42,229 nucleotides of DNA from a bacterium (lineage in GTDB: Bacteria; Chloroflexota; Chloroflexia; Chloroflexales; Kallotenuaceae): NCBI GenBank assembly GCA_016781525.1, contig JADDQE010000007.1:1-42229 (forward strand), given 5' to 3'. The notes under the pieces are model-generated. The model had not been told where the DNA came from. It saw only the letters and a list, made by a program, of their open reading frames with translations, and searched no databases. Both the position numbers and the translations under genes were made by a program. Positions 5,199 through 35,209 of this stretch are shown here, piece after piece; the stretch's first letter is position 1; each line of letters begins with the position of its first letter.

Positions 5199-5243
5199 CG
5201 TAACGCTCGTCGTAACGCCTAGGAGACGGACGAGGGTTAGGCT
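5199..5243 (+). promoter_or_regulatory. Tandem CGTAACG promoter element, copy A
   Basis: CGTAACG occurs at 5199-5205 and again at 5211-5217, a period of 12 bp. A conserved block with AGGAGACG follows, and a -10-like TAGGCT lies at 5238-5243, 27 bp after the second repeat starts. Transcription would begin near 5250, giving a leader of about 37 bases before the cupredoxin ATG. Copies B (6546) and C (20808) share the same order and exact spacing. The repeats cover the -35 region, as expected for a directly repeated activator site. It accounts for most of the ordered sequence in the 338-bp gap after deoB. The regulator is unknown. Confidence 0.6.
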
Positions 5244-5286
5244 TGTCCCATCACCAATCCCGGGTTCAGCCCTCAGGAGGATTCCT

Positions 5287-6096
5287 ATGGAAGCTACGAT
5301 CACTGCACCGCGACGGATGGGTCGGCGCCCTTTGGCAGCCCTCGGCAAAGTTGCCGCCGGCGCGCTCGTCGGATTGGCAGCACTCTTCGGATATGTACAG
5401 CTGGTTGTATTCGGGGCTTTCATACCGGTCGTCACCGGCTTCGCGGCTGTGGCCGTGCTACTCGCAGGCCTTGTCACGATGGGCTGGCGCTGGTCGCCGC
5501 TGGTAGCGACGCTTGCGTGCGGCGCGCTACTGGCGCTTATGCTCGGACCAGCATCCGGCGAAATCTTCTATATCTTGTCGCGTCCACATGATGTCGGGCT
5601 ATTCGCGCTGATTGTGCTGCTGCTGCCGGTGCTGGCTATCGGTGCCGTAGCCGGGATTGCCGCGACGGTTCAAAATTATCGCTATGCGGCTGCTGATCGC
5701 CGCACCCCCCTGGGTCTGCGCAGCGGTCTGCTCCTGCTGCTGGGTCTGGTGGCGGGCGCGATTGCAGTTGCCGCCGCCCCGCAAAGCAGCGACGCGGGCG
5801 GCGTTAGCCCTGAAGCACTCGCCTCCCTTCCGGCCGTCACCCCGGAACATTTTATGCCTGGCAAGGAGATTAAGGTCAAGGCAGGTGAGCTTGTCGCCCT
5901 GCGGTTGGAAAACTCGGACGGCGTCGGGCACACCTTTGATATCGACGAGCTTGGCGTCCACGCGCCGATGCCTAACGGCAAGCCCGGGCTGGCGCTGTTC
6001 CGTCCGACGAAGCCAGGTACCTATACATTCTACTGTGTGCCACATTACAACAAGGCGACTGGGGAAGGCATGCAAGGCAAGCTGATCGTCGAGTGA
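5287..6096 (+). CDS. Polytopic membrane protein with C-terminal cupredoxin domain
   Basis: 269 residues. The ATG at 5287 has AGGAGG six bases upstream; the frame stays open to 5008, but that extension looks non-coding and contains promoter copy A. The N-terminal part has about four or five hydrophobic segments (roughly 20-45, 47-66, 70-88, 103-128 and 145-163). A plastocyanin-like domain covers about 180-269 with a complete type 1 copper ligand set by position: His215 (VGHTF), Cys250 (FYCVPHY), His253 and Met262 (GEGMQGK). It most likely carries electrons at the outer membrane face or binds copper. The multi-spanning anchor before a cupredoxin is less usual than a single helix. No oxidase or nitrite reductase gene is nearby. 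The ligand set is seen; the redox partner is unknown. Confidence 0.85.
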   Translation: MEATITAPRRMGRRPLAALGKVAAGALVGLAALFGYVQLVVFGAFIPVVTGFAAVAVLLAGLVTMGWRWSPLVATLACGALLALMLGPASGEIFYILSRPHDVGLFALIVLLLPVLAIGAVAGIAATVQNYRYAAADRRTPLGLRSGLLLLLGLVAGAIAVAAAPQSSDAGGVSPEALASLPAVTPEHFMPGKEIKVKAGELVALRLENSDGVGHTFDIDELGVHAPMPNGKPGLALFRPTKPGTYTFYCVPHYNKATGEGMQGKLIVE

Positions 6097-6545: not shown

Positions 6546-6590
6546 CGTAACGTCCTCCGTAACGCTTAGCAGACGCTTACAAGCTAGACT
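6546..6590 (+). promoter_or_regulatory. Tandem CGTAACG promoter element, copy B
   Basis: CGTAACG at 6546-6552 and 6558-6564 (period 12), then AGCAGACG and a -10-like TAGACT at 6585-6590, again 27 bp after the second repeat starts. The predicted transcription start (about 6597) nearly coincides with the first usable GTG of the SpoIIE gene at 6598, so that message may be leaderless. Confidence 0.6.
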
Positions 6591-6597
6591 TGCTCCA

Positions 6598-8283
6598 GTG
6601 ACCTACCGAACGGGAGCTGAGACGGCACTCCGATTACATAATTTTTGGCAGGTGTTGACGCGGCGGGGCCGCCGTGTTGTTCCAGCCCAGCCCGCTCCTG
6701 CAGTGCAACCTGCACCACAGGCTGCACCGCCAACAATCGAAATCGCGCCGAACGATCCATTGATCGCCTACTTTCAAAGTGTGACGGGCGCCGTCGATAT
6801 TCAAAAGCTCGATCTGGACTCGCCGGCGCTGCGGTCGATGAAAGCGGCCGGTGTTCAGACCGCCGTGCCACTCGTCAGCCAAGGGGAGCTGATTGGCTTG
6901 CTCAACCTTGGGCCGCGGCTGAGCTCGCAAGATTATTCCGCCGACGACCGCGCCTTGCTCAACAACTTGGCGACCCAGGCAGCACCCGCACTGCGGGTGG
7001 CGCAGCTGGTTCGTGAGCAGCAGGCCGAGGCGCAGGCGCGTGAGCGCATCGCGCAGGAGCTTCGAGTCGCGCGACTGATCCAGCAAACTCTGCTGCCGAA
7101 AGAGCTTCCTGCGCTTCAAGGTTGGCAGATCGAGCGCTACTATCAGCCGGCTCGCGAGGTCGGCGGAGATTTCTACGATTTTATTGATCTGCCGGATGGG
7201 CGGTTAGGCATCGTCGTCGGCGACGTCACCGATAAAGGAGTACCTGCCGCGCTCGTGATGGCGACGACCCGCAGCATTATGCGCGCGGCCGCCCCGTCAG
7301 CTGCCTCCCCCGGGCAGGTGCTGGCACAGGTAAACGACTTGCTGGTCAACGACATTCCGCCCAACATGTTTGTCACCTGCTTGTATGCGATCTTCGACCC
7401 GCGAACTGGCCTGCTCGAGTACGCCAATGCGGGGCATGATCTGCCGTACCGCCGCTGTGTCGAAGGGATCCAAGAGTTACGGGCAACGGGCATGCCGCTT
7501 GGCCTCCTCCCGGGCATGATGTACGAAGAAAGAACCGTGACGCTGCAGCGCGGCGACCAGGTGCTGTTCTACAGCGACGGTCTCGTAGAGGCACATAACC
7601 CAGAGCGTGAAATGTTCTCGTTTCCGCGGCTACGTGAGCTGCTGGCAAGTCGCCCCGCCGACGGTGGTCCAGCACTTGTCGAGTTTCTGCTCAACCAGCT
7701 GACGGAATTTACTGGCCCCGGCTGGGAACAGGAAGACGACATTACCCTTGTAACGCTCCACTCCACGGCGGGAGTGGCGGACGTTGATGTCACAGCGGGC
7801 CAGGGAGAGCGTCCCTCAGGGAATGGGGTTGGCGAGTGGCGTGAAATCAGCGCGTTTACTGTTGCAAGCGAGCCAGGCAACGAGCGCATCGCGATGAAGC
7901 AGGTCGGGGAGGCGCTGCAAGGCTACAACCTGTCGGCAAAGCGTTTGGAGCGCCTCAAGACCGCCGTCGCCGAGGCCACGATGAACGCAATCGAGCACGG
8001 GAACGAAAACCGTGCCGAGCTACCGGTCGCAATTCAGCTTTTGGCATCGGATGAGGCCGTCAAAGTCCAGATTACGGACAACGGCGGTAAACAGATTGAG
8101 CCGAACTCGAGCGTGCCGGACCTAGAGCTCAAGCTTGCGGGTGAGCAAACACCGCGTGGCTGGGGGCTGTTTCTGATCCAAAATCTCGTCGACGAAATGC
8201 ATGTCATCAGCGACGCGGCGCATCATACCGTCGAGCTGATTTTGTATCTACAAGGAGACCGTCATGCCAGCCAAGCAACTTAA
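6598..8283 (+). CDS. SpoIIE/RsbU-type phosphatase fused to an anti-sigma-type kinase domain
   Basis: 561 residues. A partial GAF-like region covers about 50-135, a helical linker 135-170, a PP2C/SpoIIE phosphatase domain about 175-390 (VGGDFYDF with Asp191 and Asp194, GDVTDKG with Asp209, YSDGLVE with Asp327, EDDIT with Asp380/381), and a GHKL ATPase domain about 420-555 (N-box EATMNAIEHGNE, Glu459 and Asn463; DNGG; G-box PRGWGLF). This arrangement lets one protein both phosphorylate and dephosphorylate a STAS antagonist, the core of a partner switch. Two STAS genes follow at once, the first overlapping by 20 bp. The start is a GTG with no binding site, placed at the predicted transcription start; GTG 6652 is the alternative. 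The final target (sigma factor or other) is not in the window. Confidence 0.9.
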   Translation: MTYRTGAETALRLHNFWQVLTRRGRRVVPAQPAPAVQPAPQAAPPTIEIAPNDPLIAYFQSVTGAVDIQKLDLDSPALRSMKAAGVQTAVPLVSQGELIGLLNLGPRLSSQDYSADDRALLNNLATQAAPALRVAQLVREQQAEAQARERIAQELRVARLIQQTLLPKELPALQGWQIERYYQPAREVGGDFYDFIDLPDGRLGIVVGDVTDKGVPAALVMATTRSIMRAAAPSAASPGQVLAQVNDLLVNDIPPNMFVTCLYAIFDPRTGLLEYANAGHDLPYRRCVEGIQELRATGMPLGLLPGMMYEERTVTLQRGDQVLFYSDGLVEAHNPEREMFSFPRLRELLASRPADGGPALVEFLLNQLTEFTGPGWEQEDDITLVTLHSTAGVADVDVTAGQGERPSGNGVGEWREISAFTVASEPGNERIAMKQVGEALQGYNLSAKRLERLKTAVAEATMNAIEHGNENRAELPVAIQLLASDEAVKVQITDNGGKQIEPNSSVPDLELKLAGEQTPRGWGLFLIQNLVDEMHVISDAAHHTVELILYLQGDRHASQAT

Positions 8284-8621
8284 CGTGAAGGTTCGGCACC
8301 AGCCTGCCTCTGCGATCATCGATCTGCACGGCGAGATCAATGCTTTCGCTCAAAGCTCGCTGAGTGCGGCCTATGCCGATGCGGAGGCGGGTAAGCCCGA
8401 CGTCATTTTGCTCAACTTTAGCGATGTGGAGTACATCAATAGTACCGGAATTGCCCTGATTGTCAGTCTTCTGGCGCGCGCGCGCCGCCCGCCGCCGTCT
8501 GATCGCGTGTGGATTAAGCGAGCACTACGTCGAAATCTTCAATATCACCCGCTTGGCCGACTATATGACGGTTTATCCCGACGAAGCGACAGCGCTGAAT
8601 GAGGTTCCCGAAGCAGCCTAA
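8264..8621 (+). pseudogene. STAS-domain anti-sigma factor antagonist, frameshifted near its C-terminus
   Basis: The ATG at 8264 has AAGGAG six bases upstream and overlaps the phosphatase gene by 20 bp, so the two are translationally coupled. Residues 1-72 form a STAS domain with the phosphorylatable Ser60 in EYINSTGIAL. As it stands the frame ends at 8602 with an Arg/Pro-rich tail unlike any STAS protein. Dropping one base within the GC-repeat stretch 8472-8497 restores a tail containing GLSEHYVEIFNITRLAD, which closely matches GLSEHYQHIFELTRLTD of the next gene, and extends the stop to 8621. So one base was inserted, either by mutation or by a sequencing or assembly error in a slippery GC run. 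Ser60 lies before the break. Confidence 0.8.
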
Positions 8622-8685
8622 CGCTGCTACCGGATTGTGTTTTCACCGCAGCGATTACGTCCAGCACCCAGATAGGAGGGCTTCC

Positions 8686-9045
8686 ATGGCTCCAGCGAAC
8701 GTGTCGATGAACGTTCGAAAGGTAGGCGATACCGTCAGCATCGTGGATATCGAGGGCGAAATGACGGCAACCGCGGAAAGCGCGCTCATGGACGCGTACA
8801 CCGCTGCCATGTCGCCGCAAACGCGCGCAGTTATCCTTAACTTCACCGGCCTCGAGTACATGAACAGTAGCGGCATCGGGTTGCTCGTGACACTACTGAT
8901 TCGGGTCAATCGCCAAAAGCAGCGGCTGCTCGCATACGGGCTCAGCGAGCACTACCAGCATATTTTCGAGCTTACACGACTGACCGACGCGATCAAACTG
9001 TTCGATTCCGAGTCTGAGGCTGTTGCCGCTGCTCGTGGCGCATAG
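8686..9045 (+). CDS. STAS-domain anti-sigma factor antagonist
   Basis: 119 residues, a typical length for a stand-alone STAS antagonist. The ATG at 8686 follows AGGAGGG at five bases. The phospho-acceptor is one of the serines in EYMNSSGIGLL (Ser61 or Ser62); the fold ends with GLSEHYQHIFELTRLTD and a helix. In partner switching the dephosphorylated form binds the kinase and frees its target; here the kinase and phosphatase activities probably both sit in the protein encoded from 6598. It is a paralogue of the preceding gene, 64 bp upstream, so the operon carries two antagonists for one phosphatase/kinase. Confidence 0.93.
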   Translation: MAPANVSMNVRKVGDTVSIVDIEGEMTATAESALMDAYTAAMSPQTRAVILNFTGLEYMNSSGIGLLVTLLIRVNRQKQRLLAYGLSEHYQHIFELTRLTDAIKLFDSESEAVAAARGA

Positions 9046-9068: not shown

Positions 9069-9820
9069 ATGACGACGCCATCTCCGCAAACATCGGAAGG
9101 TCAGCCGCGTGATGCTGTTAACTGGGCCGAAAGTGTTTCAACGCTCAAGGTGCAGGCGGTGCCGGCGAGCGCTGTCAATCTGAACGTCGACGGTCGCCGC
9201 GTGAACGCCGCGCTGCAGGGCTTCGGGCAGCTTTGGCAGAAAACGTATCGCATCAAGCTGTCGGGCGCGGCGGTAACGTCGAAGGAGCTTATGCAAGTCT
9301 GGAAGCAGCACTTCCCAGAGTTTCATCCGCCGCAAAGCCGCTTCTATCCTTCGTTCGCGGGCGTACAACCAGGCGAGCTATTGTTGATCAACGCCTCGCT
9401 GACCGGCTTGCCTGTGTACACGGGTGTCATGGTCATCTACGCCGACGAGAGTGTTTTACGGTTATGACGGCCGAGGGTCTGCCTGAGGCTGGCTGGAACA
9501 CCTTCAGCGTCTATGAAGAAGACGGATGTACGGTTGCCCAAGTCCAGTCGATGGCGCGGGCCAACGATCCGATCTATGAGATCGGCTTCCGGCTGATAGG
9601 CTCGCGGGCCCAGGAAAAGATTTGGAGGCATGTGCTTACTCAGCTTGCCGCGCGCTACAACGTGCAGGGCGAGGTTGAGCTCACCAAGCAGTGTGTCGAT
9701 CCAAAGCTGCAGTGGGCCAATACCAAGAATATATGGCATAATGCGGCGCTGCGGTCGATGCTGTACATGCTGACGAGCCCAGCTCGCAAGCTGCGCCGGG
9801 TCGGACGTCGACCAAGTTAA
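9069..9820 (+). pseudogene. Conserved protein of unknown function, split by a one-base deletion
   Basis: The ATG at 9069 follows AAGGGGG at five bases and lies 23 bp after the second STAS gene, so it belongs to the partner-switching operon. The first frame gives 132 residues and stops at 9467. The frame one base earlier continues directly with VMTAEGLPEAGWNTFSVYEE and runs to 9820. Adding one T to the TTTT run at about 9455-9458 joins both parts into a protein of about 251 residues. I recall similar full-length proteins of unknown function from Chloroflexota; the fold may resemble the SRPBCC/polyketide-cyclase type, but that is a guess. The loss is either a real frameshift or a homopolymer sequencing error. 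Confidence 0.75.
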
Positions 9821-9874: not shown

Positions 9875-11302
9875 ATGGCTCAACATCACGCCTATGATGC
9901 GGTCGTCGTCGGCGCCGGACCGAACGGTCTCGCGGCGGCAATCACGCTAGCTCAAGCCGGACGCTCGGTACTTGTGCGGGAGGCGGCACCAACGCTTGGC
10001 GGCGGTACACGCTCGGCCGAGCTGACGCTGCCCGGCTTTATCCATGATATCTGTGCTGCGATTATGCCGCTGGGGGTCGCCTCGCCCTTTCTGCGCACGC
10101 TGCCGCTCCACGAGCACGGTCTGGAATGGGTCTACTCGCCCGCGGTGCTAGCGCACCCCTTCGACGATGGAACGGCTGTGGTGATGGAACGCTCGGTTGA
10201 GGCAACCGCCGCGTCCCTTGGGTCCGACGCGGGCGCATACCGGAAGCTGATCGAGCCAATCGTGCGGGATTGGCCCCGGCTGGAAAGAGGTGTGCTGGGT
10301 CCGTTTACGATCCCGCGGCATCCCTTCGCAATGGCGCGCTTCGGGCTGGTCGGTCTGCGCTCAGCCGATGCCGTGGCGCGGCGTGCCTTCCAAAGTGACC
10401 GCGCGCGCACGTTCTTTGCGGGTCATGCGGGTCATGCGATCCAGCCGCTTGAGTTTCCGGCCACGGCTGCATTTGGTCTGCTGATCGCCGTACTAGGGCA
10501 TGTGGTCGGCTGGCCGCTGGCCGGCGGTGGCTCGCAGCGCGTTGCGGATGCAATGGCCTCATACCTCCGGTCACTCGGCGGTGAGATTATCACCGATGCG
10601 CGGGTGAATACGCTGGCTGAGCTACCACCGGCCCGTGCGCTTCTACTTGACGTAACGCCGCGGCAGCTGCTCGAGATCGCAGGGGAACGCTTGCCTGCAG
10701 GATATCGTCGCAAGCTCCAGCGCTACCGCTATGGTCCCGGCGTCTACAAAATCGATTGGGCGCTCGACGGCCCGATCCCCTGGCGGTCGCAGGAATGCTT
10801 GCGCGCCGCTACGATCCATCTCGGCGGGAGCTTCGACGAGATCAAGGCGTCGGAGCGCAAAGCCTTCGGCGGCGAGCATGCCGAGCGGCCCTTTGTGTTG
10901 CTGGCACAGCAGTCGCTCTTTGACCACACGCGCGCGCCCGCCGGCAAGCACACCGCTTGGGCCTACTGCCATGTTCCCAACGGTACCACCTGGAACATGA
11001 CCGAGCGGATCGAGGCACAGGTGGAGCGCTTTGCGCCCGGCTTTCGGGATCGTATTCTGGCGCGGCATACCTTCAGTCCGGCGGAGATGGAGCGCCACGA
11101 CGCCAACTATATCGGCGGCGACATTAACGGTGGCGTACAAGACCTGCGCCAGCTTTGGACGCGACCGACCGCACGTATTGTGCCCTATAGCACCCCAGCA
11201 AAGGGTATCTATATTTGCTCGTCGTCGACACCGCCAGGAGGAGGCGTCCATGGCCTCTGCGGCTACTTCGCAGCCAAAGCGGCATTACGGGCGGATCCGT
11301 AG
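9875..11302 (+). CDS. Phytoene-desaturase-like FAD-dependent oxidoreductase
   Basis: 475 residues. The N-terminus is a dinucleotide-binding motif, AVVVGAGPNGLAAAITLAQAG (GxGxxG at 14-19 region), followed by an acidic strand end and a GGGTRS segment typical of CrtI-like amine-oxidase-superfamily flavoproteins. The C-terminus has the FAD-contacting GIYICSSSTPPGGGVHGLCGY pattern shared by this family. The substrate is not clear: relatives include carotenoid desaturases and isomerases, but many are uncharacterised, and no carotenoid gene is adjacent. There is only a weak binding site before the ATG, 54 bp after the split gene ends; whether it is part of the upstream operon is open. Confidence 0.85.
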   Translation: MAQHHAYDAVVVGAGPNGLAAAITLAQAGRSVLVREAAPTLGGGTRSAELTLPGFIHDICAAIMPLGVASPFLRTLPLHEHGLEWVYSPAVLAHPFDDGTAVVMERSVEATAASLGSDAGAYRKLIEPIVRDWPRLERGVLGPFTIPRHPFAMARFGLVGLRSADAVARRAFQSDRARTFFAGHAGHAIQPLEFPATAAFGLLIAVLGHVVGWPLAGGGSQRVADAMASYLRSLGGEIITDARVNTLAELPPARALLLDVTPRQLLEIAGERLPAGYRRKLQRYRYGPGVYKIDWALDGPIPWRSQECLRAATIHLGGSFDEIKASERKAFGGEHAERPFVLLAQQSLFDHTRAPAGKHTAWAYCHVPNGTTWNMTERIEAQVERFAPGFRDRILARHTFSPAEMERHDANYIGGDINGGVQDLRQLWTRPTARIVPYSTPAKGIYICSSSTPPGGGVHGLCGYFAAKAALRADP

Positions 11303-11422
11303 CGGACGAGGGACTGGCTGAGGCGCTGGCGCAAGTCTTCAAGAAGGGACGACAAGGCGTTGCTACTGAGAGACACCGGAAGTGAGCCCAGGCCTGCACA
11401 GGATGTTCATCAGAGAGCAGCC

Positions 11423-12652
11423 ATGCGCTTGCACGGCTGGAGTCTAGTCGTGGCGCGTGTTACATGGCTTGTGGTGACAATCATCACCGTTGGCCTGACT
11501 CTGGTCGCCCTGCCGTTGCGTTACACCGAACTTTCAACCGTCTGCACCGGTGAGGCGGACATCTGCGAGTACTCTCGGCTCCTCACTCCTAAGCAGGTTG
11601 GGGCGCTTGAAGCGGCCGGTATCTCAATCGGTAGCTATGGAGCCTACATATTCGCCATTAGCGTCATCTTTACGGTAGTGTCATGGCTGATTGGCCTGGT
11701 GATCTTCTGGCGCAAATCCGATGACCAAATGGCACTCCTCGCGTCGCTGATGCTCGTCACCTTTGGCTCCTTCTATATGGGGTCGTTGAATTCGCTTACA
11801 AACGCCTTTCCTGTAACGGCCCTTGCTGCCAAGCTCATTGCCGTCCTCGGATTTACCTCGATTATTCTCTTTCTTTATACGTTCCCCCACGGATCCTTCG
11901 CGCCGAGATGGACAGCTTGGCTTGCGATCATATGGATTGTAAACGATATCATCTCGGTGCTTTTTCCTGCGCTGATGCAAGAGTATGCCGGCATCGGCTT
12001 TCTGTCGTTCTTCATCCCAGCACTCGGCTGCATCGGAGTTCAAATTTACAGGTACCGGAGAGTGCGGGATCCCGTCGAGCGACAGCAGGCCAAGTGGGTT
12101 GTTTTTGGTATCGTCGCGTGCTTTAGCTCGCTACTTTCATTTCTGGTCATTGCTCGAATGATTGGCCTTGAGGCCACCAGCCCCATGGGGCTTATCCTCC
12201 ACCCGACAGTCTTGATGGTCTGCGTGATGGCGATTCCTATCTCGATCGGCATGGCAATCCTGAAGTCTCGGCTCTGGGACATCGACGTCGTCATCAACCG
12301 CGCTCTAGTCTACGGCTCGCTCACTGTCACGCTTCTGCTTGTCTACATTGGGAGCGTGGTGCTGCTGTAGGGGGCTCTCCGTCCGCTTGTTGGAACGAGC
12401 TCCGAGCTTGCGACGGTCGTCTCGACGCTCGCAATCGCCGCGCTTTTTCAGCCGCTGCGTCGCCGCATTCAGCAGGTGATCGACCGGCGCTTCTTTCACA
12501 GAAAGTACGACGCCGAAAAGACGCTTGCCGCCTTCAACGCACGACTTCGTGACGAAGTTGATTTGGATCAGCTGACGATTGAGCTGGAACAGCTCGTGGA
12601 CAAGACCCTTCATCCGGTACACGTCTCAGTTTGGCTGCGGCCGAGGCAGTAG
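11423..12652 (+). pseudogene. Membrane sensor-like protein interrupted by an in-frame TAG
   Basis: The ATG at 11423 follows a GAGAG stretch; a TTG at 11360 is possible. About 315 residues follow with some eight hydrophobic segments, ending YIGSVVLL and a TAG at 12368-12370. The same frame then continues without a stop to 12652 and encodes family-like sequence: GALRPLVGTSSELATVVSTL, IAALFQPLRRRI, IDRRFFHRKYDAEKTLAAF and HPVHVSVWLRPRQ. I know this pattern (membrane region, then FxRRKYDAxKTLAxF, then a short C-terminus) from Chloroflexota membrane proteins and sensor kinases, where Gln commonly stands near the TAG. A single CAG to TAG change explains the break. No kinase catalytic domain follows. 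Function is unknown. Confidence 0.75.
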
Positions 12653-12978: not shown

Positions 12979-15414
12979 TTAAAGTACCCATTCCTTGGCA
13001 CACGCCCGGACGCGTACGCCTTCTGCATCACCGCTCAGTACCTCAACTCGTGGGTGCCACACGCCATCTGTATCGCGCTCTTGGATGTACACGCCCCACG
13101 CCCGGCCGGTTGACCACAACGTTTGGAACCTGTTTTGCTCGGGGGAGACGCCAACAGCCGGAGCAAAAGCAAGCTCTTTACGACCCATGTCGGCGTGTAC
13201 ACCGCTCAGCGCGAGCAGCAGCGCCCAGCTCGACATGCTGCGGGCATAATGATGCCCACATTCAACTTCATTCCATGGGTTGCGACGGACACCGTCATGT
13301 CGAGCACGTACGGCCTCAACGATCTCCAGCCCCTCCATGAATCGGCCTTCGTACATCAGGTGGGCCGCAACCTGATACTCAACGCCTGTCCAGGCTTCAT
13401 CCGAGTACACAAAAGGGTACCTTGGCCGCCCACCGTTGGGCCAGGAGCACATCAGCAGTCCCGCCTCATCATTGAGGACGTAGGTTCGTTGTGTATTGGT
13501 GTGGTGACTGAAACGGCGCTTGAAGTTGTGAGCGAAGATCGAGTCCAGCGCGACCTGGCCATGCTCGCGGGGAATCAGGTTGCCCAGGTTAAGGATCCGC
13601 GCATGAAGTTGGCCGAGCAGCTGATCGGCGAGGCATCCTGCGCCGTGCTGGTATTTGTACGCATCGACGTCTGCGAGCCGCTGCACGTAATAGGCGCCGT
13701 TCCAGAGCATCTCATCCAGCCGCCGGCTGCCTTGCTCAAATGTTGCCCGACAGCGTTCGGCAAGCTCCGGCTCGTTCATGACGCCTGCCAGCTCTTCGAC
13801 CGCCCGTAAACCGGCAAGGTAGTAGATGCCACACAGCGGGTTTTCGCCATAGAACTCGATATCGTACGTGTTGTGCTGGCGTCCGTCGAGCACTCCATCG
13901 TTGTTTTTGTCCCACTGCTGCGTGGCGTACGTGAGGGCACGCTTTACATTGGGCCAGACCTCCTGTAGCCATTCACGATCGCCACTGAGCTGCCATTCGC
14001 GCAGCACGCGCAGAATGCTGCCCATCTGGCCGTCCACGGCGGCTTCCGGCTGCTGATCGCCCCAGGCCCAGATGAAGTGTTCGCCGAACGTCTGGTAGGT
14101 TCGGAAGAACATATAGCCACTCTCATTGGTCTCGACCTTAAACTCGATGCGTCGCATCTCGCGTTCGAGGCTCGGGAAGAGAAATGCAACCGTCTGGGCA
14201 TAGCTCCACACGTGGGTACACGTTCCGTCGCAACAGCCTCGATCATCAAAACAGCCCTCGTAGCCAAAGAACTTTCCGTCTTCTAGCCAGAAGCAGGTCG
14301 TGCTGCGAACCGGAACGATGTTGGCCGATATGGCATCCAATACAGACGCGGGCAGCGTACTGCCGAATAATGCCGCATGAAACTGGCGCGTTTGCTCGGC
14401 TAAGCGGGGCTGGTTCTCGATGACGTAGCGCGCGACGGCCCAGGCATCATCGAAGCGGGTCGCATAGTGATTGCGAACCAGCGAGCGCGGCTCTGCGCTC
14501 CAGCTGTTGGGACGATTGGGAAAATACCACGTGAGAATGAATTGGTACACTTGTTGCTGCCCGGGCGCGAGTGTATCAAGCAGTCCGAGTGAGGCCGTAT
14601 CGGTCTTGCCCAGCTGGGACGGCGTCTCGTAGCCCAAATCGGTCAAACGACCGTCCGTGCAAAAATCGTCCCAAAATTCTTGGAGAAAATCAAACCACGC
14701 GCCGCGTATCCATGCTCGCTTGGTGGTGATATGGGGATGGGTTGTCACTAAGCCAAGGCTGCCGGTCTTGAGATCATGCGGCGCGTACTGCTGCGAATAC
14801 AAAAACAGACCACGACCATAGCTCTCATCACGCACCTCGTTTACATTCAGCCCGGTACCACCGGAGCTGAAATTACCGAACCGGTCCGTCTCCAAGCCGC
14901 CGACCGGATTACTGATCGACCCAACCAGTGTTAGCTGAACCGGTTGATCGGAAATATTGGTCACGGTATAGCTGAAGATGGCACACGGGATACCTGAATC
15001 TTCGGGATGGAGCGGGATCAACGGCGTGTATGCTTCAAGCTGAACGTGAACGGGCAGATCACGATCATCAAAGTCGATCCAAGCAAACGGATACTCTCCA
15101 CGAAAGGTGCTGCCGGCAAGGCGAGGCAGACCGGCAGCAGTTGAGGGATGGTAGCCATGGGAAAGGGTGTGGGGCGGCTGGAGCGGAGCTTCCAGCACTT
15201 TTGCCACAGCCTGGCCTGTCCCGCTTTGCACGCGAATGGCGAAGAAGGTGTTCGGCAAGCTGGTGCCTTTACCAGGATGGTTAAAGATTTCCCAATCACG
15301 GAGTTCGCCGCGTGCTCCCAGCGAAACATTACCGGTCCCGATGCCGCCAAGTGGAAAGGCGACGGCGCTGGCTGTGTGCGGGAATGTGCGTAATGGTTCA
15401 AACGGCTTCGTCAT
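12979..15414 (-). CDS. GH116-type beta-glucosidase / glucosylceramidase-like enzyme
   Basis: 811 residues from the ATG at 15414, which has GGAGG four to five bases upstream; the frame is open to 15588 but the extension has no binding site. The N-terminal half carries FPLGGIGTGNVSLGARGELRDW and the catalytic half contains CTHVWSYAQTVAFLFPSLE, DGVLDGRQHNTYDIEFYG and ECGHHYARSMSSW, the pattern of the DUF608/GH116 family that includes bile-acid beta-glucosidase (GBA2) and bacterial beta-glucosidases. The Asp of HNTYDIEF is the likely acid/base. There is no signal peptide, so it probably acts in the cytoplasm on an imported glucoside or glycolipid. The substrate is not determined. The SARP-type regulator gene lies directly upstream on the same strand. 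Confidence 0.9.
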   Translation of the reverse strand: MTKPFEPLRTFPHTASAVAFPLGGIGTGNVSLGARGELRDWEIFNHPGKGTSLPNTFFAIRVQSGTGQAVAKVLEAPLQPPHTLSHGYHPSTAAGLPRLAGSTFRGEYPFAWIDFDDRDLPVHVQLEAYTPLIPLHPEDSGIPCAIFSYTVTNISDQPVQLTLVGSISNPVGGLETDRFGNFSSGGTGLNVNEVRDESYGRGLFLYSQQYAPHDLKTGSLGLVTTHPHITTKRAWIRGAWFDFLQEFWDDFCTDGRLTDLGYETPSQLGKTDTASLGLLDTLAPGQQQVYQFILTWYFPNRPNSWSAEPRSLVRNHYATRFDDAWAVARYVIENQPRLAEQTRQFHAALFGSTLPASVLDAISANIVPVRSTTCFWLEDGKFFGYEGCFDDRGCCDGTCTHVWSYAQTVAFLFPSLEREMRRIEFKVETNESGYMFFRTYQTFGEHFIWAWGDQQPEAAVDGQMGSILRVLREWQLSGDREWLQEVWPNVKRALTYATQQWDKNNDGVLDGRQHNTYDIEFYGENPLCGIYYLAGLRAVEELAGVMNEPELAERCRATFEQGSRRLDEMLWNGAYYVQRLADVDAYKYQHGAGCLADQLLGQLHARILNLGNLIPREHGQVALDSIFAHNFKRRFSHHTNTQRTYVLNDEAGLLMCSWPNGGRPRYPFVYSDEAWTGVEYQVAAHLMYEGRFMEGLEIVEAVRARHDGVRRNPWNEVECGHHYARSMSSWALLLALSGVHADMGRKELAFAPAVGVSPEQNRFQTLWSTGRAWGVYIQERDTDGVWHPRVEVLSGDAEGVRVRACAKEWVL

Positions 15415-15517
15415 TGTCCCTCCAATCTGCCACAGAACCCACGGGGCCGGGGTCACACCCTGGCCTATCACCTCAGCCTTTGCACTTATGCAAAGGATCC
15501 TATGCCGGCATGCCGCA

Positions 15518-15943
15518 TTAAGAAGCATACGCTGCAAGGGCAGCTTCCGCCAGCTCAATTGCTCGCACGGCGTCACTATCGGCCCCATACGCGAGGGCTA
15601 GGTTGTTGAGCGCTGCAACACGTGCCGACGGATCGGTGAGCTGCTGAGCCAAATGCAGGCTTTGTTCGCCGTGGTGGCGCGCCCTGACAAAGTCCCCGCC
15701 CTTGCTCGAAATAATGCTGAGGATATTGTGCACTTGGGCGAGCGCGCGTTGGTCGCCGGACGCTTGTGACAGCTCAAGGGCCTGCTGCGCCAGCTCGATG
15801 GCGCGGTTAGAATCGCTGAGCTGCTGGGCAACCAGGCTTCGGTCAGCTTGAAGGCGTGCTCGCTCTGCGACAGCTCCCGTCGCGGGGAGCGCGGCGAGGG
15901 CATTTCCGAGGTGCTCTTCCGCTAGCTCCCATTCGCCGCGCCG
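15518..15943 (-). pseudogene. Detached C-terminal TPR remnant of the SARP regulator
   Basis: After the TAG at 15944-15946 the same frame runs on for 141 codons to a TAA at 15518-15520. It begins RRGEWELAEEHLGNALAAL and continues with helical repeat sequence (RAIELAQQALELSQ, ARHHGEQSLHLAQQL, AALNNLALAYG), the normal continuation of the TPR region of such regulators. CAC-CAG-CGG would restore the reading frame, so one CAG to TAG change explains the first stop. The end at LAAYAS is also earlier than I would expect from the family, so the C-terminus may have been lost as well. Confidence 0.7.
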
Positions 15944-18289
15944 CTAGTGCACATTGCCAAGCTTATGCTCGATCGCCGCACGTGCCTCCGGTGGGCGTTG
16001 ACGCGCGGCGGCTTCGTACTGCGAGAGCGCAGCGGCGTAGTCCCCCAGCAGTGTCTGCAAATCCCCCAGCGCTTCATGTAGCACGGCCGTGTCGGGGTGC
16101 CCGAGGGTAAGTGCGGCCTGGAAATGGCTCAATGCCTCCGTATTCGCATAAAGCGTACGGGCCTGCTCTCCCGCAAGCATAAAGTAGTGCGCTGCGTCAG
16201 CTGGCTGGCGGGCGAGCTGATAGTGGCTGGCAATCTTGGCAGCGACTGTCGAACGCTCGCTGCGGGCTCGACTCCGGGCAACGAGCGCCTCAGCAATCCG
16301 GCGATGGAGCAGCCGCCGACGCGCGAGGCTTGTCTCATCGTAGACCAGCACGCGCAGCTTCTCGTGGCTGAAGTCATACATCAGGCTGGACGCATTGTCG
16401 CCGACTTCGACAACAAGTCCCTGTGCGATAAGCTCTTCCAGCGCGGTAATCGCTTCTTCTTCGCTGCGGCCGCTGGCCTCGCGCAAGGTGTCGAAATCAA
16501 AGGAACGACCAATGGCGGCCGCCGTGTTCAGCAGCTGCCAACCTGTTTCACTGACAGCACTCAGCCGGCCCCGCAAAAGGTCGCGTACTCCTCCCGGCAA
16601 TGACCACGGCGCATGATCGGACGTTAGTGCTCCTTGTGTCAACGCCGCAAGATATTCCCCAACAAAGAGGGGCAGTCCTTCCGTCTCCTGATACAACCGC
16701 CCGGCAAAATCCGCTCCCATGCCGCTCAGCTGCGCTGGACGGGCTAGCTCAAGCACGGCACTTTGATCGAGGCGGCGCAGCGGCAAGAGCCTGCCTACTT
16801 CCGCCCGCTGTGCTTCCGCAACCAGCAGGCGCAGTCGATGACCGCTCGGTACCTGCTCGCCGCGCCACGTAGCGATGATGAATAGTGGCCGGCCGTGAAG
16901 TCGACGGACCAAGTACGTCAGGAGGTCGAGTGATGCAGCATCTGCCCAGTGTAGGTCGTCCAGGAAGAGCACGCTCGGAGGTGTGCTGCCGCAGGCAAGC
17001 AGGAGCGCTTGGCTCAGGCCTTCGAAGAAGCGTGCCTGAGCACCTGGAGTTGCCTGAGGGCGGTCTTGCACCTGGATCACGGGCTGATCAAAGCCGTTGA
17101 TCTCGGGAAGCAGACGACCGAGCTCGCCGAGCGCATGAGCTGGGAGCTGTGCAATCCATGCTGGACGCTCTCCTTGCCGTAGGACCGCTGCAAAGGCGCC
17201 AATAAACGGGCTGTAGGCGAGCCCGGCCTCGCCAGCGTAGCAGCGACCCGACAGCGCGCGAACTCCGCTTGCCTTCAGGTGGGCAATAAATTCCTCCGCC
17301 AGGCGGGTCTTGCCAATCCCAGCCTCACCCTCCAGCACAATCAGCTGGCCATCAGTTTCGACACCTTCGTACGCTGCCTCGAGCACTGCCCATTCCAGGG
17401 CACGACCAACCAATGGGCTTGATTCCTTGACATGTGGCTCCACTGTCGCTCGTGCAGGACTGGCTTGCGCGGCTGGGCGTTCCGTCGACGGGGCCGATGG
17501 TGCTGCGGGAAGCGGCAGCCGGTTCTCCTTGATCGACGTGTGCAGCTCGAGCGTGGCCTCAAGCGGTGTGACTCCAAGCTCCTGCTCGAGCACGCGCTCG
17601 CACTCGCGGAACTGCCGCAGCGCAGCCGCACGGTCCCCTGCCCAGGTGTAAAGCTGCATGAGGCGGCGGTGAGCTGGCTCGTGCAGGGGGTCGAGCAACA
17701 GCCAGCGCCGAGCGCAGCCGATCGCCTGCTGCCAGTCGCCGCGCTGGCTGTGTCCCTCCGTCAATCGCTCTAACGCATCCGCCAGCTCACGACGAAGTGT
17801 ATCAGCTTGAAAGTATTGCCACTCGTCGAAGGTGGGGCTATCGCGGAGCGTAAAGCCAGCCAAGAAATCGTCGCGGTACAGCTTCACCGCCTCTTCAAGC
17901 AGTGGGAGGCAGTCGCTGCACACAGCTTTTTCAGAGTGACCGTGATCCGCACAGGCCTCAAGCAGCTGGTGGAATTGGTCGATGTCGACAACCAATCTGG
18001 GATGGTCGCCCTGAGCGCGGCCGAGTGCAAGGTTGTCGCGGTCGATTACGAGTGCACCACCACCTAAAGCCGCGTTCAAGGCTGATAACGTCCGGCGCAG
18101 AGCAGCCCGTGCCCGGGTCTGCCCGTAGTCCGGCCAGAGCAGCGCGGCCAGCGCGTCACGACTATGTGGCTGGCGGGTCACGGCAAGATAGGCTAGCAGC
18201 GCAATGGCCTTGCGCGTGTCGACTTCGACGGGCTGTCCATCGCGCTCCAAGCGTGGTGGCCCTAGCAGTAGCAGAAAAGGATGCCCCAC
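15944..18289 (-). CDS. SARP-family regulator: winged helix, BTAD, AAA/STAND ATPase, truncated TPR
   Basis: 781 residues. An N-terminal OmpR-type winged-helix domain (about 1-95) leads into a bacterial transcriptional activation domain of helical repeats (about 96-255). A linker rich in Ala and Pro precedes an ATPase domain with Walker A GEAGIGKT (321-328), Walker B SVLFLDDLHWAD and sensor-like regions, then TPR-like helices from about 640. Such proteins are cytoplasmic, ATP-dependent transcription activators. The start is a GTG at 18289 with AGGAG nine bases upstream. The frame ends at a TAG after GNVH, while TPR-like sequence continues in the same frame to 15518, so signal sensing by the C-terminus may be impaired. 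Its regulon is unknown; the downstream GH116 gene is a candidate by position only. Confidence 0.88.
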   Translation of the reverse strand: MGHPFLLLLGPPRLERDGQPVEVDTRKAIALLAYLAVTRQPHSRDALAALLWPDYGQTRARAALRRTLSALNAALGGGALVIDRDNLALGRAQGDHPRLVVDIDQFHQLLEACADHGHSEKAVCSDCLPLLEEAVKLYRDDFLAGFTLRDSPTFDEWQYFQADTLRRELADALERLTEGHSQRGDWQQAIGCARRWLLLDPLHEPAHRRLMQLYTWAGDRAAALRQFRECERVLEQELGVTPLEATLELHTSIKENRLPLPAAPSAPSTERPAAQASPARATVEPHVKESSPLVGRALEWAVLEAAYEGVETDGQLIVLEGEAGIGKTRLAEEFIAHLKASGVRALSGRCYAGEAGLAYSPFIGAFAAVLRQGERPAWIAQLPAHALGELGRLLPEINGFDQPVIQVQDRPQATPGAQARFFEGLSQALLLACGSTPPSVLFLDDLHWADAASLDLLTYLVRRLHGRPLFIIATWRGEQVPSGHRLRLLVAEAQRAEVGRLLPLRRLDQSAVLELARPAQLSGMGADFAGRLYQETEGLPLFVGEYLAALTQGALTSDHAPWSLPGGVRDLLRGRLSAVSETGWQLLNTAAAIGRSFDFDTLREASGRSEEEAITALEELIAQGLVVEVGDNASSLMYDFSHEKLRVLVYDETSLARRRLLHRRIAEALVARSRARSERSTVAAKIASHYQLARQPADAAHYFMLAGEQARTLYANTEALSHFQAALTLGHPDTAVLHEALGDLQTLLGDYAAALSQYEAAARQRPPEARAAIEHKLGNVH

Positions 18290-18569: not shown

Positions 18570-20462
18570 ATGCAAATTTTATCAGCTGAGACGCTCAGCA
18601 AGCAATACGACACGCGAATACTTTTTAACGGGGTCTCGTTTGGGATCGCGCAGGGGGCGCGGATCGGCCTGATCGGCGTTAACGGCAGCGGTAAAAGTAC
18701 CCTGCTTAAAATCGTCGCCGGTCGCGAGGAGCCCGATCAGGGTCGCGTCACACTTCGCTCTGGAACCCGCATCGCGTACCTGGCCCAGCAGCCCGTCATG
18801 GATGCCGAGCTTACCGTCCGCGACTATATGTTCACGGGTGCGGGCGAGCGCCGGCATCTCCTGGCCCAATATGAGACGCTGGTGGCCCAGCTGGAGAATG
18901 AGCCAGATAACTCCGCCGCGCTGGAGCAGCTGAGTGAACTGAGCACCCAGCTCGACGCGGGCGGTGGCTGGGATGCCGACATGGAGGTCGAAGCGATCCT
19001 TACACGCCTCGACGTCTCCGACCTTGATCGACGGCTTGGCGAACTTTCCGGTGGCCAGCGGCGCCGCGTCGCGCTAGCGCACGCGCTGATCGAGCCGGCG
19101 GACCTGTTAATCCTGGACGAGCCCACCAACCATCTCGACGCCGACACCGTCGATTGGCTCGAAACTGTACTGGCCCGCACGCCGGCGGCCCTGCTGCTGA
19201 TTACCCATGATCGCTATGTGCTTGACCGCCTCGTCACCCAAACATGGGAGCTGGATGGGGGTGGGCTGTACCAGTATGAAGGGGGCTACAGCACATTTTT
19301 GGAGCAAAAGCTCGCTCGTAATGCGCAGCGGGCACTCGACAATGCCCGCCACAAAAGCATTTTGCGGCGGGAGCTTGCGTGGCTCCAGCAGGGACCTCAG
19401 GGGCGCGGCACCAAGCAGAATGCCCGGGTCGAGCGAATCATGGCACTGCGCGAAACGCCCACGGATGCGCCCGATCGAGAGCTCGTTCTGACGCCAATCT
19501 CGCAGCGACTCGGTACGCGCGTTGTGGAGCTGGAGCACGTTACGAAGCAGTACGACGAGCGCGTTTTGCTCGACAATTTGACGTTAAGCATTGGCCGAGG
19601 TGACCGGATCGGGATTGTCGGTCCGAACGGGGTAGGCAAGTCGACGCTGCTTAATCTCGTCGCGGGACGGCATCAGGCCGACAGCGGGATTGTCGAGCGC
19701 GGCGAGACGGTGCACCTTGCCTACTACGATCAAGAAAGCACTGCGCTCGTCGACAACATGCGTGTGATCGACTATGTGAAGGAAGGCGCGGAGCTGATCC
19801 GAACAGCGGATGGCGAGGTTGTCACGGCTGGCCAGATGTTGGAGCAGTTCTTGTTTGCGCCGCAGATGCACTACGCGTTGATCGGCACGCTCTCGGGCGG
19901 CGAGCGCCGACGTCTTTACCTGTTGCGGACCCTGATGTTTGCCCCCAACGTGCTGTTGCTCGACGAGCCGAGCAATGACCTCGACGTACAGACGCTGGCG
20001 GCGCTTGAGGCTTACCTCGATAACTTCGCTGGAACGCTGGTGATCGCCTCGCACGACCGCTATCTGCTCGATCGTACGGTTGACCAGCTGCTCGTCTTCG
20101 AGGGCGAGGGCCGTATACGAACCTTTCCTGGCAGTTATTCCGCCTATGCAGCAGCCCGGGCCCAGCAGCGCGCGCACACCCCGCCGCCGCGCCGTCCCGC
20201 CGAGCGCGAGGCCCCACCGAAACGCCAACCCGAGGGCCGGCGTGGTATCTCTTTCAAGGAACGGAAGGAGCTAGCAAGCCTCGAGGCGCGCATTGGCGAG
20301 CTGGAAGCGCGGCAGGCCGACCTAAACGCTAAGCTCACGCAGCCGGCCTCATATACCGAGCTCCAGCAGCTTTCGGAGAAGCTGTCCGCCACGGGGGTGG
20401 AGCTGGAACGGGCCTTTGAGCGCTGGGCCGAGCTTGCGGCCCTTGCTGAGGGCACTGCCTAA
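18570..20462 (+). CDS. ABC-F family ATPase (Uup-like)
   Basis: 630 residues with two ABC cassettes and no membrane segments. Cassette 1 has Walker A GVNGSGKST (36-44), signature LSGGQRRRVALA and Walker B LLILDEPTNHLD. Cassette 2 has GPNGVGKST, LSGGERRRLYLL and VLLLDEPSNDLD. The cassettes are joined by a helical linker rich in Arg and Leu, the part that inserts in the ribosome in ABC-F proteins. After the second cassette, a Pro/Arg-rich stretch leads to a C-terminal coiled coil (about 560-625), as in Uup. ABC-F proteins act on translation or, for Uup, DNA and ribosome-related processes, rather than transport. It is divergent from the SARP gene across a 280-bp gap in which I see no further gene. 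Confidence 0.93.
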   Translation: MQILSAETLSKQYDTRILFNGVSFGIAQGARIGLIGVNGSGKSTLLKIVAGREEPDQGRVTLRSGTRIAYLAQQPVMDAELTVRDYMFTGAGERRHLLAQYETLVAQLENEPDNSAALEQLSELSTQLDAGGGWDADMEVEAILTRLDVSDLDRRLGELSGGQRRRVALAHALIEPADLLILDEPTNHLDADTVDWLETVLARTPAALLLITHDRYVLDRLVTQTWELDGGGLYQYEGGYSTFLEQKLARNAQRALDNARHKSILRRELAWLQQGPQGRGTKQNARVERIMALRETPTDAPDRELVLTPISQRLGTRVVELEHVTKQYDERVLLDNLTLSIGRGDRIGIVGPNGVGKSTLLNLVAGRHQADSGIVERGETVHLAYYDQESTALVDNMRVIDYVKEGAELIRTADGEVVTAGQMLEQFLFAPQMHYALIGTLSGGERRRLYLLRTLMFAPNVLLLDEPSNDLDVQTLAALEAYLDNFAGTLVIASHDRYLLDRTVDQLLVFEGEGRIRTFPGSYSAYAAARAQQRAHTPPPRRPAEREAPPKRQPEGRRGISFKERKELASLEARIGELEARQADLNAKLTQPASYTELQQLSEKLSATGVELERAFERWAELAALAEGTA

Positions 20463-20807: not shown

Positions 20808-20852
20808 CGTAACGCTCTCCGTAACGCTCAGCAGACGGGCAAACCGTAAAGT
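20808..20852 (+). promoter_or_regulatory. Tandem CGTAACG promoter element, copy C
   Basis: CGTAACG at 20808-20814 and 20820-20826 (period 12), then AGCAGACG and TAAAGT at 20847-20852, again 27 bp after the second repeat starts. The first 34 bp resemble copy A at 29 positions by my count. It precedes the pair of small membrane protein genes. Confidence 0.6.
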
Positions 20853-21063: not shown

Positions 21064-21531
21064 ATGCGCGAAAGCAAGTCGTTGTTGTACCGTGGCAGGA
21101 AATTGTCGGATGTCATCCTCGATGGGCTGTTTGGTGGCTTAGCCGGCGGTGTCGTGCTGGGGGTTTACTTGGTGCTATGGGGTTGGATGGCTGGGCAATC
21201 GCCCGAAACGGTGCTGGGGCTCTTTGACCCCGGCCAAAGAGGTGTGGCGACGGCAGGTGCACTAACCCATCTGGCTGTCTCGGCAGTCTATGGTATTTTT
21301 TTCGGGCTGCTCTGGTGGACGCTGCGCTGGTCGCTGCACCTTGCCGTGCCAGCCTCGCTCGCAGGTATCGCCTATGGCCTCGCACTTCTGTCTGTCGCCA
21401 AGGCGGTGATACTCCCGCTATCAGGTACACCGCTTGCCGAGATACCCACCCTCCACTTCGCACTGGCGCACATGATGTACGGAGCAGTCCTTGGCTGGGT
21501 GTGCGAGCGAACCGGAGCACAGGCCGCGTAA
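21064..21531 (+). CDS. Small polytopic membrane protein, unknown function
   Basis: 155 residues with about four hydrophobic segments: roughly 20-42 (VILDGLFGGLAGGVVLGVYL), 65-90, 95-115 and 130-150. It has a small cytoplasmic basic N-terminus (MRESKSLLYRGRKLSD). The ATG at 21064 is preceded only by GTGGGG; a GTG at 21052 is an alternative start. I do not recognise the family. Glycines in the first helix and the overall pattern resemble the next gene, so the pair may be distant paralogues or partners. Promoter copy C lies about 210 bp upstream. Confidence 0.75.
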   Translation: MRESKSLLYRGRKLSDVILDGLFGGLAGGVVLGVYLVLWGWMAGQSPETVLGLFDPGQRGVATAGALTHLAVSAVYGIFFGLLWWTLRWSLHLAVPASLAGIAYGLALLSVAKAVILPLSGTPLAEIPTLHFALAHMMYGAVLGWVCERTGAQAA

Positions 21532-33082: not shown

Positions 33083-35209
33083 CTACTTTGTGTTGATGGA
33101 AACAGGCTGATCGGGGCGCCCGCTCGCAACGCCGGCGAGAACCCGCACGACGACAAGTGTCATATCATCATGTTGATCGGCTCCTGCACTATGCCGTCCA
33201 ACGGCTTCAAGCACACTGGTGAGGATGCCGTAAGCATCTTGGTGCGGGCCGAGGCCGCGGACAATATCTGCCAGCCGATCGAAGCCAAATAGCTCCCGTT
33301 CAGCGCTCATCGCCTCGACGATCCCATCGCTGAGCAGCAGCACGACATCGCCGGGTGCTAGCTTGACGCACACTTCTTGATAGCGCTGGGTTACCAGTGC
33401 TCCCAGCGGAAAGCCTACCGTATCGAGCCATTCCACCTCGCCGGTGGCTCGCCTTAGCAATGGTGGTACCGCTCCAGCGCCAATTGTGCGTAACAACCAG
33501 CCGTCGCGCTGCTGCACCAGCAACGTGTAGCAGAGCGCGATATTCATCTGGCTGCGGCTCGTGTAAGGTTGCATCGCAAGGTGCAAGGCTTCCGCGACTT
33601 CCGGTGGTCCCGCGGCGGTGGTCGTGACCGTGTTGAGCGCGACGACCGTGCCACTCAGGAGCAGCGCCGCGCCTAGTCCCTTGCCGGAAATATCCCCGAC
33701 CGCGATGCCGATCTGGCGTTGGACCCCGTCTTCCGGCACGGCCCCCTGGGGATAGTATCCGACAAAATCTCCGCCAACTTCGACCGCGGGAAGCACCCGC
33801 CCTACGATATCGAGGTCGGGCATGACTGGAGGTAGCTCCGGCAGTAAGATTTGCTGCACCCGGCTGGCAATCTCCAGCTCCGCTGTGCGATGCGCCGAGC
33901 CAGCCGGATACCATGCCGCGGCACCAGCCGAAAAGCGCGCCTCGAGCAGGCGCTGGGCCCACCCCACTTCTATGCCATGCTGCAAGGCGAAGAGCAAGAG
34001 GGGCCCGATGAGCTCGGGCATCCACCAGGCGGAGGTAAAGACCTCTTCACGTGCCGCGAACTGCAGATAGTGGGCGATACCCTCCGTGACTAGCTCGGCA
34101 CGACCGAGGGCCAGGCCTGCCGCAGCGCGGTATAGCTCGGCCGTCGCCACGTAGTGTTGATAGCCCTGCTCTGCATAGATTGCAATGGATTGCTCAAGCA
34201 GTGCAAGCGCCGCCTCCGGCTGACCACTCACCAGCTCCACCAAGGCCAGCAGCAGCTTGGACTGCGGCACACTCATCCAGCCTTTGCCCTCTTCGGCGAG
34301 CGCCAGGCAAACCTCTCCACTCCACCGTGCCTCGGCCAAGCGGCCCTGCCGAATCTGAATGAAGGCCGGGCCCTCGGGCTCTTCCGCCCAGCAGCCGGCA
34401 AGCTGGTAAGCAGCGAGCGCGGCGTCTAACCGGTCTTGGTCACGCAGCACGTGTCCTTGTGCGGCGACCGCCCACGTCCACAATTTCTGATGCTGCCACG
34501 TCTCGGCTAGCCGCCGCGCCATGTCGAGGACTTCACTCGCCGCGTCAAGCTGTCCCTGGCGCCAGTAGGCTAGGCCGAGCTCGTAGGCACACCACGGCAA
34601 CATGTAGGCGGTCTCGTCATCACCCTGCGCCAGCTTCATCGCATAGGCAGCCGCATAGACCGCCCGCCGCATCTGGCCGGCGTAGTGGTAACCGGAGGCG
34701 ATGTTTCGCAGCATCTGAATCCGGCCGATGCGTTGAAGCCACAGGTCCTCCTCGTTGTCCAGCGCGGCAAGCGCCGCCTCGCCAGCTTTCACCGCATCCT
34801 GAACGCGTCCTTGCCCGATCAGGCAGAGAAACGCTCCGAAGTGGAGCTCGGCGCTCAGATAGGGTAGAGCGGTCTGCTCAAGCATGGGTGCGATGCCTGC
34901 GAGCCCGGTCGCAAACTCGTGCTCATGGTAGCGCATGACGACCCATTCCGCGAGTGCCCAAACCTCACCTTCCGCATCGCCGCGCTCTCGGAACAGTGTC
35001 AGCGCTTGGTCAATCAACGGGGTTGCATCTGCAAAGCGGCTGTGCATACGGCAAAGGCGCCGCCCTTGAAAGAGTGCGAGCCAGGGTTCATGCACAAGCG
35101 TATTCTGGTCTAGCGCGTCGAAGCGCTCCAAAAGCGCCGGGGGGTAGCGTCGGTGCCGGAGCGCATCGCGTGCGGCGGAAACAAGGTCGGTTGGCGGTGT
35201 TGCGCTCAT
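33083..35209 (-). CDS. TPR-repeat protein with C-terminal SpoIIE/PP2C phosphatase domain
   Basis: 708 residues. Residues about 1-430 are tandem TPR-like helical repeats (LHFGAFLCLIGQGRVQDAVK, QLDAASEVLDMARRLAETW and so on). ELEIASRVQQILLPELPPV links to the SpoIIE/RsbU phosphatase domain with VGGDFVGYY, AVGDISGKGLGAALL, LLSDGIVEA and DDMTLVVV supplying the metal-binding Asp residues. It should dephosphorylate a STAS protein in response to a protein-protein signal read by the TPR part. No STAS or kinase gene is adjacent; the module at 6.6-9.0 kb is a possible partner. The ATG at 35209 has GAGG five bases upstream. Confidence 0.92.
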   Translation of the reverse strand: MSATPPTDLVSAARDALRHRRYPPALLERFDALDQNTLVHEPWLALFQGRRLCRMHSRFADATPLIDQALTLFRERGDAEGEVWALAEWVVMRYHEHEFATGLAGIAPMLEQTALPYLSAELHFGAFLCLIGQGRVQDAVKAGEAALAALDNEEDLWLQRIGRIQMLRNIASGYHYAGQMRRAVYAAAYAMKLAQGDDETAYMLPWCAYELGLAYWRQGQLDAASEVLDMARRLAETWQHQKLWTWAVAAQGHVLRDQDRLDAALAAYQLAGCWAEEPEGPAFIQIRQGRLAEARWSGEVCLALAEEGKGWMSVPQSKLLLALVELVSGQPEAALALLEQSIAIYAEQGYQHYVATAELYRAAAGLALGRAELVTEGIAHYLQFAAREEVFTSAWWMPELIGPLLLFALQHGIEVGWAQRLLEARFSAGAAAWYPAGSAHRTAELEIASRVQQILLPELPPVMPDLDIVGRVLPAVEVGGDFVGYYPQGAVPEDGVQRQIGIAVGDISGKGLGAALLLSGTVVALNTVTTTAAGPPEVAEALHLAMQPYTSRSQMNIALCYTLLVQQRDGWLLRTIGAGAVPPLLRRATGEVEWLDTVGFPLGALVTQRYQEVCVKLAPGDVVLLLSDGIVEAMSAERELFGFDRLADIVRGLGPHQDAYGILTSVLEAVGRHSAGADQHDDMTLVVVRVLAGVASGRPDQPVSINTK

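Follow-up and report, generated by a model that had tools for sequence, protein, structure and literature searches.

A triple-heptamer promoter element in Chloroflexota is a probable operator of an AfsR-type SARP activator

Which regulator reads a promoter element that is repeated before several genes of a single Chloroflexota contig? The question is raised by the 42,229-nucleotide stretch analyzed here (the window; Kallotenuaceae, contig JADDQE010000007.1), in which CGTAACG-N5-CGTAACG occurs exactly three times (positions 5199-5217, 6546-6564, and 20808-20826), always on the plus strand. Each copy lies upstream of a same-strand gene, encoding a cupredoxin protein (copy A), a GAF-SpoIIE phosphatase (copy B), or a DUF6789-like protein (copy C). 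The original prediction of three copies with one layout, on one strand and upstream of genes, is borne out by these exact matches; dinucleotide-shuffled sequence gave 0.33 matches per window even with two mismatches allowed, and no shuffle reached 6. It had also placed the hexamer TAGGCT at a fixed distance of 27 bp. The spacing was found in 3/3 copies, with the first base of a TANNNT hexamer lying 27 bp past that of repeat 2, which leaves 20 bp between them, but literal TAGGCT is confined to copy A, the corresponding hexamers being TAGACT in copy B and TAAAGT in copy C. In all three copies, AG[GC]AGACG follows 3' of both repeats, and the AGGAGACG block holds a degenerate third repeat, 11 bp past repeat 2, that had been overlooked. 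The layout is one of three heptamers at spacings of 12 and 11 bp, then 9 bp, then a TANNNT −10 element. Its parts, read from the sequence (heptamer 3 also from the site pool described below), are as follows.

5199-5205 (+): copy A, heptamer 1, CGTAACG
5211-5217 (+): copy A, heptamer 2, CGTAACG, 12 bp past heptamer 1 and over the −35 region
5222-5228 (+): copy A, degenerate heptamer 3, GGAGACG, 11 bp past heptamer 2
5238-5243 (+): copy A, −10 element TAGGCT; transcription start predicted near 5250
6546-6590 (+): copy B, whole element
6546-6552, 6558-6564, and 6569-6575 (+): copy B, heptamers, the third being GCAGACG
6585-6590 (+): copy B, −10 element TAGACT; start predicted near 6597
20808-20852 (+): copy C, whole element
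20808-20814, 20820-20826, and 20831-20837 (+): copy C, heptamers, the third being GCAGACG
20847-20852 (+): copy C, −10 element TAAAGT; start predicted near 20859

At spacings of 15 to 19 bp, none of the three window copies has a TTGACA-like −35 hexamer (at most 2/6 matches), which agrees with the earlier proposal that the repeats replace the −35 element, as for a class II activator. The start that had been forecast near 5250 also fits the position of the −10 element.

Across 400 Chloroflexota genomes, the strict pattern CGTAACG-N5-CGTAACG-N20-TANNNT gave 46 matches in 19 genomes, compared with 1 match for the reversed control pattern. Allowing up to two mismatches in a looser pattern gave 86 matches in 24 genomes versus 15 scattered single controls. 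The sample consists mostly of draft metagenome assemblies, and the named hosts Burkholderiaceae, Trueperaceae, and Pleurocapsa may be binning errors. The distribution of sites is patchy; across at least nine families the heptamers and the −10 spacing are kept, while linkers and flanks diverge. The consensus of 71 nonredundant sites reads CGTAACG, CGTAACG 12 bp on, [CG]G[AG]GACG 11 bp further, 9 bp, and TANNNT, with linkers biased to NTTNY; most of the 3' ACG and −10 letters were demanded by the search pattern, so that their conservation is partly built in, whereas the pattern left both the linker bias and the G(A/G/T)G that precedes ACG free. For this reason, the three-repeat geometry was tested separately without the motif, as given below. 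Copies inside genes or in random orientation were not the picture obtained: for 70 of the 71 sites, a same-strand open reading frame of at least 80 amino acids begins no more than 450 bp downstream, and these starts mostly fall within 100 bp.

Within the same 4.9-Mb draft genome, an extended pattern with up to three mismatches found only one further copy, on contig C26. A slightly looser pattern that included the −10 element added two copies, a good one on contig C92 and a weak one on C257; the latter, with two mismatches, a convergent spacer, and no gene downstream, is probably due to chance and was discarded. The C92 site (positions 2465-2509, +; locus L068 of genome G000) is the fifth good site in the genome, and an apparent truncated 7TM-type N terminus fused to other sequence lies 3' of it.

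The genes downstream of the window copies, together with the proposed regulator, are listed here.

5287-6096 (+): copy A target, membrane protein with a C-terminal cupredoxin domain (Cupredoxin_1, 3.9e-10)
6598-8283 (+): copy B target and first gene of its operon, GAF-SpoIIE(PP2C)-HATPase protein (SpoIIE, 1.2e-51; HATPase_c_2, 3.6e-20), start codon uncertain
8264-8602 (+): STAS-domain protein of the copy B operon (domain match)
8599-9045 (+): second STAS-domain protein of the copy B operon (domain match)
9069-9800 (+): DUF1990-like gene, kept in the operon of relatives and frameshifted here (weak DUF1990 match of a homolog)
9875-11302 (+): FAD/NAD-binding oxidoreductase, kept in the operon (neighborhood families and domains)
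11360-12370 (+): 7TM sensor-like protein with an in-frame TAG (12368-12370); homology runs on to about 12637
15944-18289 (−): AfsR-type SARP (DNA-binding domain, BTAD, AAA_16, and TPR), proposed regulator (domains and model)
21064-21531 (+): copy C target, a small membrane protein of DUF6789-like type; in relatives its gene and the SARP gene are directly divergent

The gene order of the copy B operon (GAF-SpoIIE-HATPase, STAS, STAS, DUF1990-like, FAD oxidoreductase, and 7TM) recurs in relatives. Among the 71 sites, the first downstream gene encodes a GAF-SpoIIE protein (n = 18), a member of the 7TM family (n = 13), a DUF6789-like protein (n = 9), or a DUF1990-like protein (n = 2); these families were built from the site neighborhoods themselves, with domains assigned separately. 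The 7TM family to which the product of 11360-12370 belongs is the commonest single-gene target. Relative to its relatives, the DUF1990-like gene is split over two frames around positions 9450-9464. Elsewhere in the window, the product of a gene at 33083-35209 (−) resembles SpoIIE phosphatases in its C-terminal part (31% identity, catalytic region), and this gene has no site upstream.

The SARP is encoded 12 kb from the element and contains a BTAD (PF03704, 1.5e-20; protein P0001), an AAA_16 domain (7e-28), and a TPR_12 match. Its N-terminal DNA-binding part gave no Pfam match. The first 256 residues were modeled at pLDDT 94, and the best solved matches of this model were AfsR (8k60, Z 21.3; 8hvr, Z 20.3) and EmbR (Z 19.0), followed by a next match at 13.6. 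A phmmer search likewise aligned residues 6 to 250 with EmbR. By these matches, the N terminus is an OmpR-type winged-helix DNA-binding domain, and the protein as a whole fits a large AfsR-type SARP with BTAD, ATPase (NOD), and TPR region. An ABC-F-like ATPase gene (18570-20462, +) separates the window SARP from the copy C site and its DUF6789 gene; in relatives, the SARP gene and this pair are adjacent.

SARP and site also travel together. Orthologs of the SARP (at least 268 bits) occur in 26/400 genomes overall and in 15/19 strict-site genomes (hypergeometric p 4e-17, kinship ignored). Of the four strict-site genomes lacking an ortholog, two (G269 and G330) are fragmented or incomplete drafts, G330 being 58% complete, and two (G264 and G043) have the site with a distant SARP only; that of G043 is 42% identical and lies 15 kb from its site. 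In several Ktedonobacteria (G061, G151, G358, and G370) a SARP is present and the exact site was not found, and a scan of additional intergenic sequence showed the motif only in G342, as a 13/11 variant. By eye, G397 shows the proximal two heptamers only.

An alignment scan for SARPs in named genomes yielded 80 loci (Ktedonobacteria, Anaerolineae, Rubrobacter, and others). The 1.1 Mb around these SARPs contained 31 sites and 0 reversed controls, and 16/80 loci carry a site in the divergent promoter, at most 300 bp from the SARP start. In G334, for example, the site begins at a distance of 31 bp from the start of the SARP gene, in front of a DUF6789 gene. The motif-free test counted triples of like heptamers in the 350 bp upstream of the 80 SARP genes, with every spacing between 8 and 16 bp considered. 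On the divergent strand, 24 loci showed 12/11 triples, whereas a typical spacing occurred at about 3 loci and the runner-up at 15. In L078-L107, a scan for generic 12/11 triples followed by a −10 element gave only two matches because these loci are short. When 21 site neighborhoods were clustered, the SARP was the sole recurring candidate DNA-binding regulator.

Diverged SARPs appear to keep the geometry and change the heptamer. Variant triples at 12/11 with TANNNT were found as CGTGACG-type repeats in G013, CATRACG in L183, GGGACG in L133, and TGGGACG in L165. In a tree of 86 SARP domains, L133 and L165 fall in a branch nearly without CGTAACG sites (the sole exception is L149, which sits at the base). 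These observations fit one protein that would read all three repeats, with a specificity that shifts along the SARP tree. Such joint divergence of motif and SARP is rare, and SARP DNA recognition could be read from this natural variation.

The layout can be compared with known operators. SARP sites are heptameric direct repeats with spacers of 4 to 15 nt (PMC10972967), and the repeats follow a rule of 11- or 22-bp distances, the last one lying 8 bp from the −10 element (PMC10936776). In the 71 sites the spacers measure 5 and 4 nt, inside the former range. Repeats 2 and 3 are 11 bp apart; repeats 1 and 2, at 12 bp, are one off the 11/22 rule. Repeat 3 ends 9 bp from the −10 element in the CGTAACG register and 8 bp from it if read one base later (GAGACGG). 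At the afs box, which extends from −40 to −19 and has no good −35 element, two 11-bp repeats are occupied by an AfsR SARP dimer, which docks sigma region 4 in place of the −35 element (PMC10936776). AfsR of Streptomyces coelicolor (PDB entries 8hvr and 8k60) shares with the window protein a SARP domain, an ATPase (NOD), and TPR, and in both systems direct repeats replace the −35 element; heptamers 2 and 3 start at −39 and −28, within 1 base of the afs repeats at −40 and −29. In contrast, the heptamer here is CGTAACG, an extra distal repeat stands 12 bp further up, and a signaling operon and cellulases take the place of the AfsR target afsS. SARP operators with three heptamers are known (PMC5930380 and PMC10972967), and PimR has been described with 10-bp units (PMC5930380). 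PimR-type operators resemble the element in their three tandem heptamers and their location next to the regulator gene, between divergent genes, but the spacers are 5 and 4 nt here versus 4 and 4. The main PimR operator also does not cover the −35 region, whereas the element does, and PimR is linked to an antibiotic cluster, a link not seen here. EmbR of Mycobacterium tuberculosis (PDB entries 2fez and 2ff4) has the same DNA-binding domain and BTAD fold (Z 19.0), with an FHA domain where the SARP has ATPase and TPR.

Taken together, the sequence comparisons make it very likely that an AfsR-type SARP activator uses the element as its operator-promoter. The tandem heptamers, on one DNA face at about −51, −39, and −28 (first −10 base taken as −12), would be bound either by three SARP protomers or by two protomers at the proximal heptamers together with a helper; the role of heptamer 1 is putative. 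The two proximal heptamers would cover the −35 region and the spacer, with the SARP dimer docking sigma region 4 as in AfsR, and RNA polymerase with the housekeeping sigma would open the TANNNT −10 element. By this route, the SARP of 15944-18289 (−) would activate transcription of the cupredoxin gene, the GAF-SpoIIE-HATPase/STAS operon, the DUF6789 gene, and the 7TM gene on C26. The original prediction knew of no described regulator with this site. That statement stands as far as the sequence of the heptamer goes; the layout, however, closely resembles the sites of SARP activators, and a probable regulator is encoded in the window itself. Our literature search found no paper on this site or on SARP targets in Chloroflexota (Ktedonobacter and SARP occurred together only incidentally) and nothing relevant on GTAACG direct repeats.

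The strongest competing explanation is that the site is bound by a different activator of the direct-repeat kind, for instance a PhoB/OmpR-type response regulator, that travels with the SARP by chance. OmpR-type regulators bind tandem repeats of about 11 bp over the −35 region, on one face and with a short gap to the −10 element, and SARP DNA-binding domains belong to the same fold class. The linked regulator here has BTAD, ATPase, and TPR and no receiver domain, and no receiver-domain regulator recurred near the sites in the 21 neighborhoods. The SARP as the only recurring candidate DNA-binding regulator there, the many lineages in which the site is part of the divergent promoter of the SARP itself, and the variant heptamers at diverged SARPs argue against this explanation, which we consider unlikely. 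The original prediction had also allowed for an alternative sigma factor. Such a promoter (ECF or SigB type) might be read by a sigma factor under the partner-switching operon, given that the copy B operon resembles anti-sigma/antagonist modules (SpoIIE phosphatase, HATPase, and STAS). Sigma factors read two short elements about 16 to 17 bp apart, whereas the sites have three co-varying direct repeats at 12/11 and a 20-bp gap from repeat 2 to a sigma-70-like TANNNT; with no sigma factor recurrent among the 21 neighborhoods, this possibility is very slight. A dispersed repeat or mobile element devoid of regulatory function, as the near-identical 19-bp cores (three in one window) might suggest, is scarcely credible for sites that face genes closely and preserve only the heptamers and the −10 spacing.

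The partner-switching proteins are candidates for a circuit shared with the SARP. The GAF-SpoIIE-HATPase protein is present in 36/400 genomes, of which 29 have a SARP of at least 180 bits (3.3 expected). The two genes are divergent neighbors in G146, G257, G342, and G397, and the 13/11 variant of G342 lies between them. Control of the SARP by these proteins, like the signal itself, is something we infer. We tentatively suggest, as a possibility of rather low probability, that the SARP and the GAF-SpoIIE-HATPase/STAS proteins form one circuit, in which partner switching would gate the SARP and the SARP would drive the module and 7TM receptor arrays through the 12/11 promoter, with a sister branch rewired to cellulose degradation.

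The TPR part of the window SARP is interrupted by an in-frame TAG (15944-15946, −), with homology running on to about 15572; the TPR region is complete in P0003. The SARP may be damaged here because of this TAG. In vitro, AfsR lacking the TPR part remains able to bind and activate (PMC10936776). For the in-frame TAGs in the SARP and 7TM genes, sequencing error, decay, and amber read-through are all possible, and the damage to the operon and its regulator (these TAGs and the frameshift in the DUF1990-like gene) may reflect assembly error or decay; thus, this particular genome may lack an intact regulon.

The sister branch has other targets. In G013, six triple-repeat sites (CGTRACG; L190-L194 and L196-L200) all precede genes for secreted proteins (6/6), namely, GH5-CBM64, CBM2-GH6, CBM2, GH9-CBM3-CBM2, GH5, and LPMO10-CBM2. 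The sites of G005 precede a GH9 cellulase and an LPMO10-CBM2 protein, and a weaker site lies 160 bp from the SARP start in that genome. In the SARP tree, the G013 and G005 proteins group as sisters (support 97/88), separate from the window SARP. The G013 set represents a predicted cellulose-degradation regulon, and its SARP would be a candidate for a master regulator that controls how Chloroflexota break down cellulose. To our knowledge, SARPs are known almost only as activators of antibiotic clusters in actinomycetes. An exact, searchable operator would tie an AfsR-type SARP branch of Chloroflexota and Rubrobacter to targets that can be listed from sequence: the partner-switching module and 7TM proteins and, in two relatives, secreted cellulases and LPMOs. 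In the window, a GH116-type glycosidase gene (12979-15588, −) lies directly 3' of the SARP gene on the same strand and may be cotranscribed with it; if so, this arrangement would parallel the control predicted for cellulase genes in G005 and G013.
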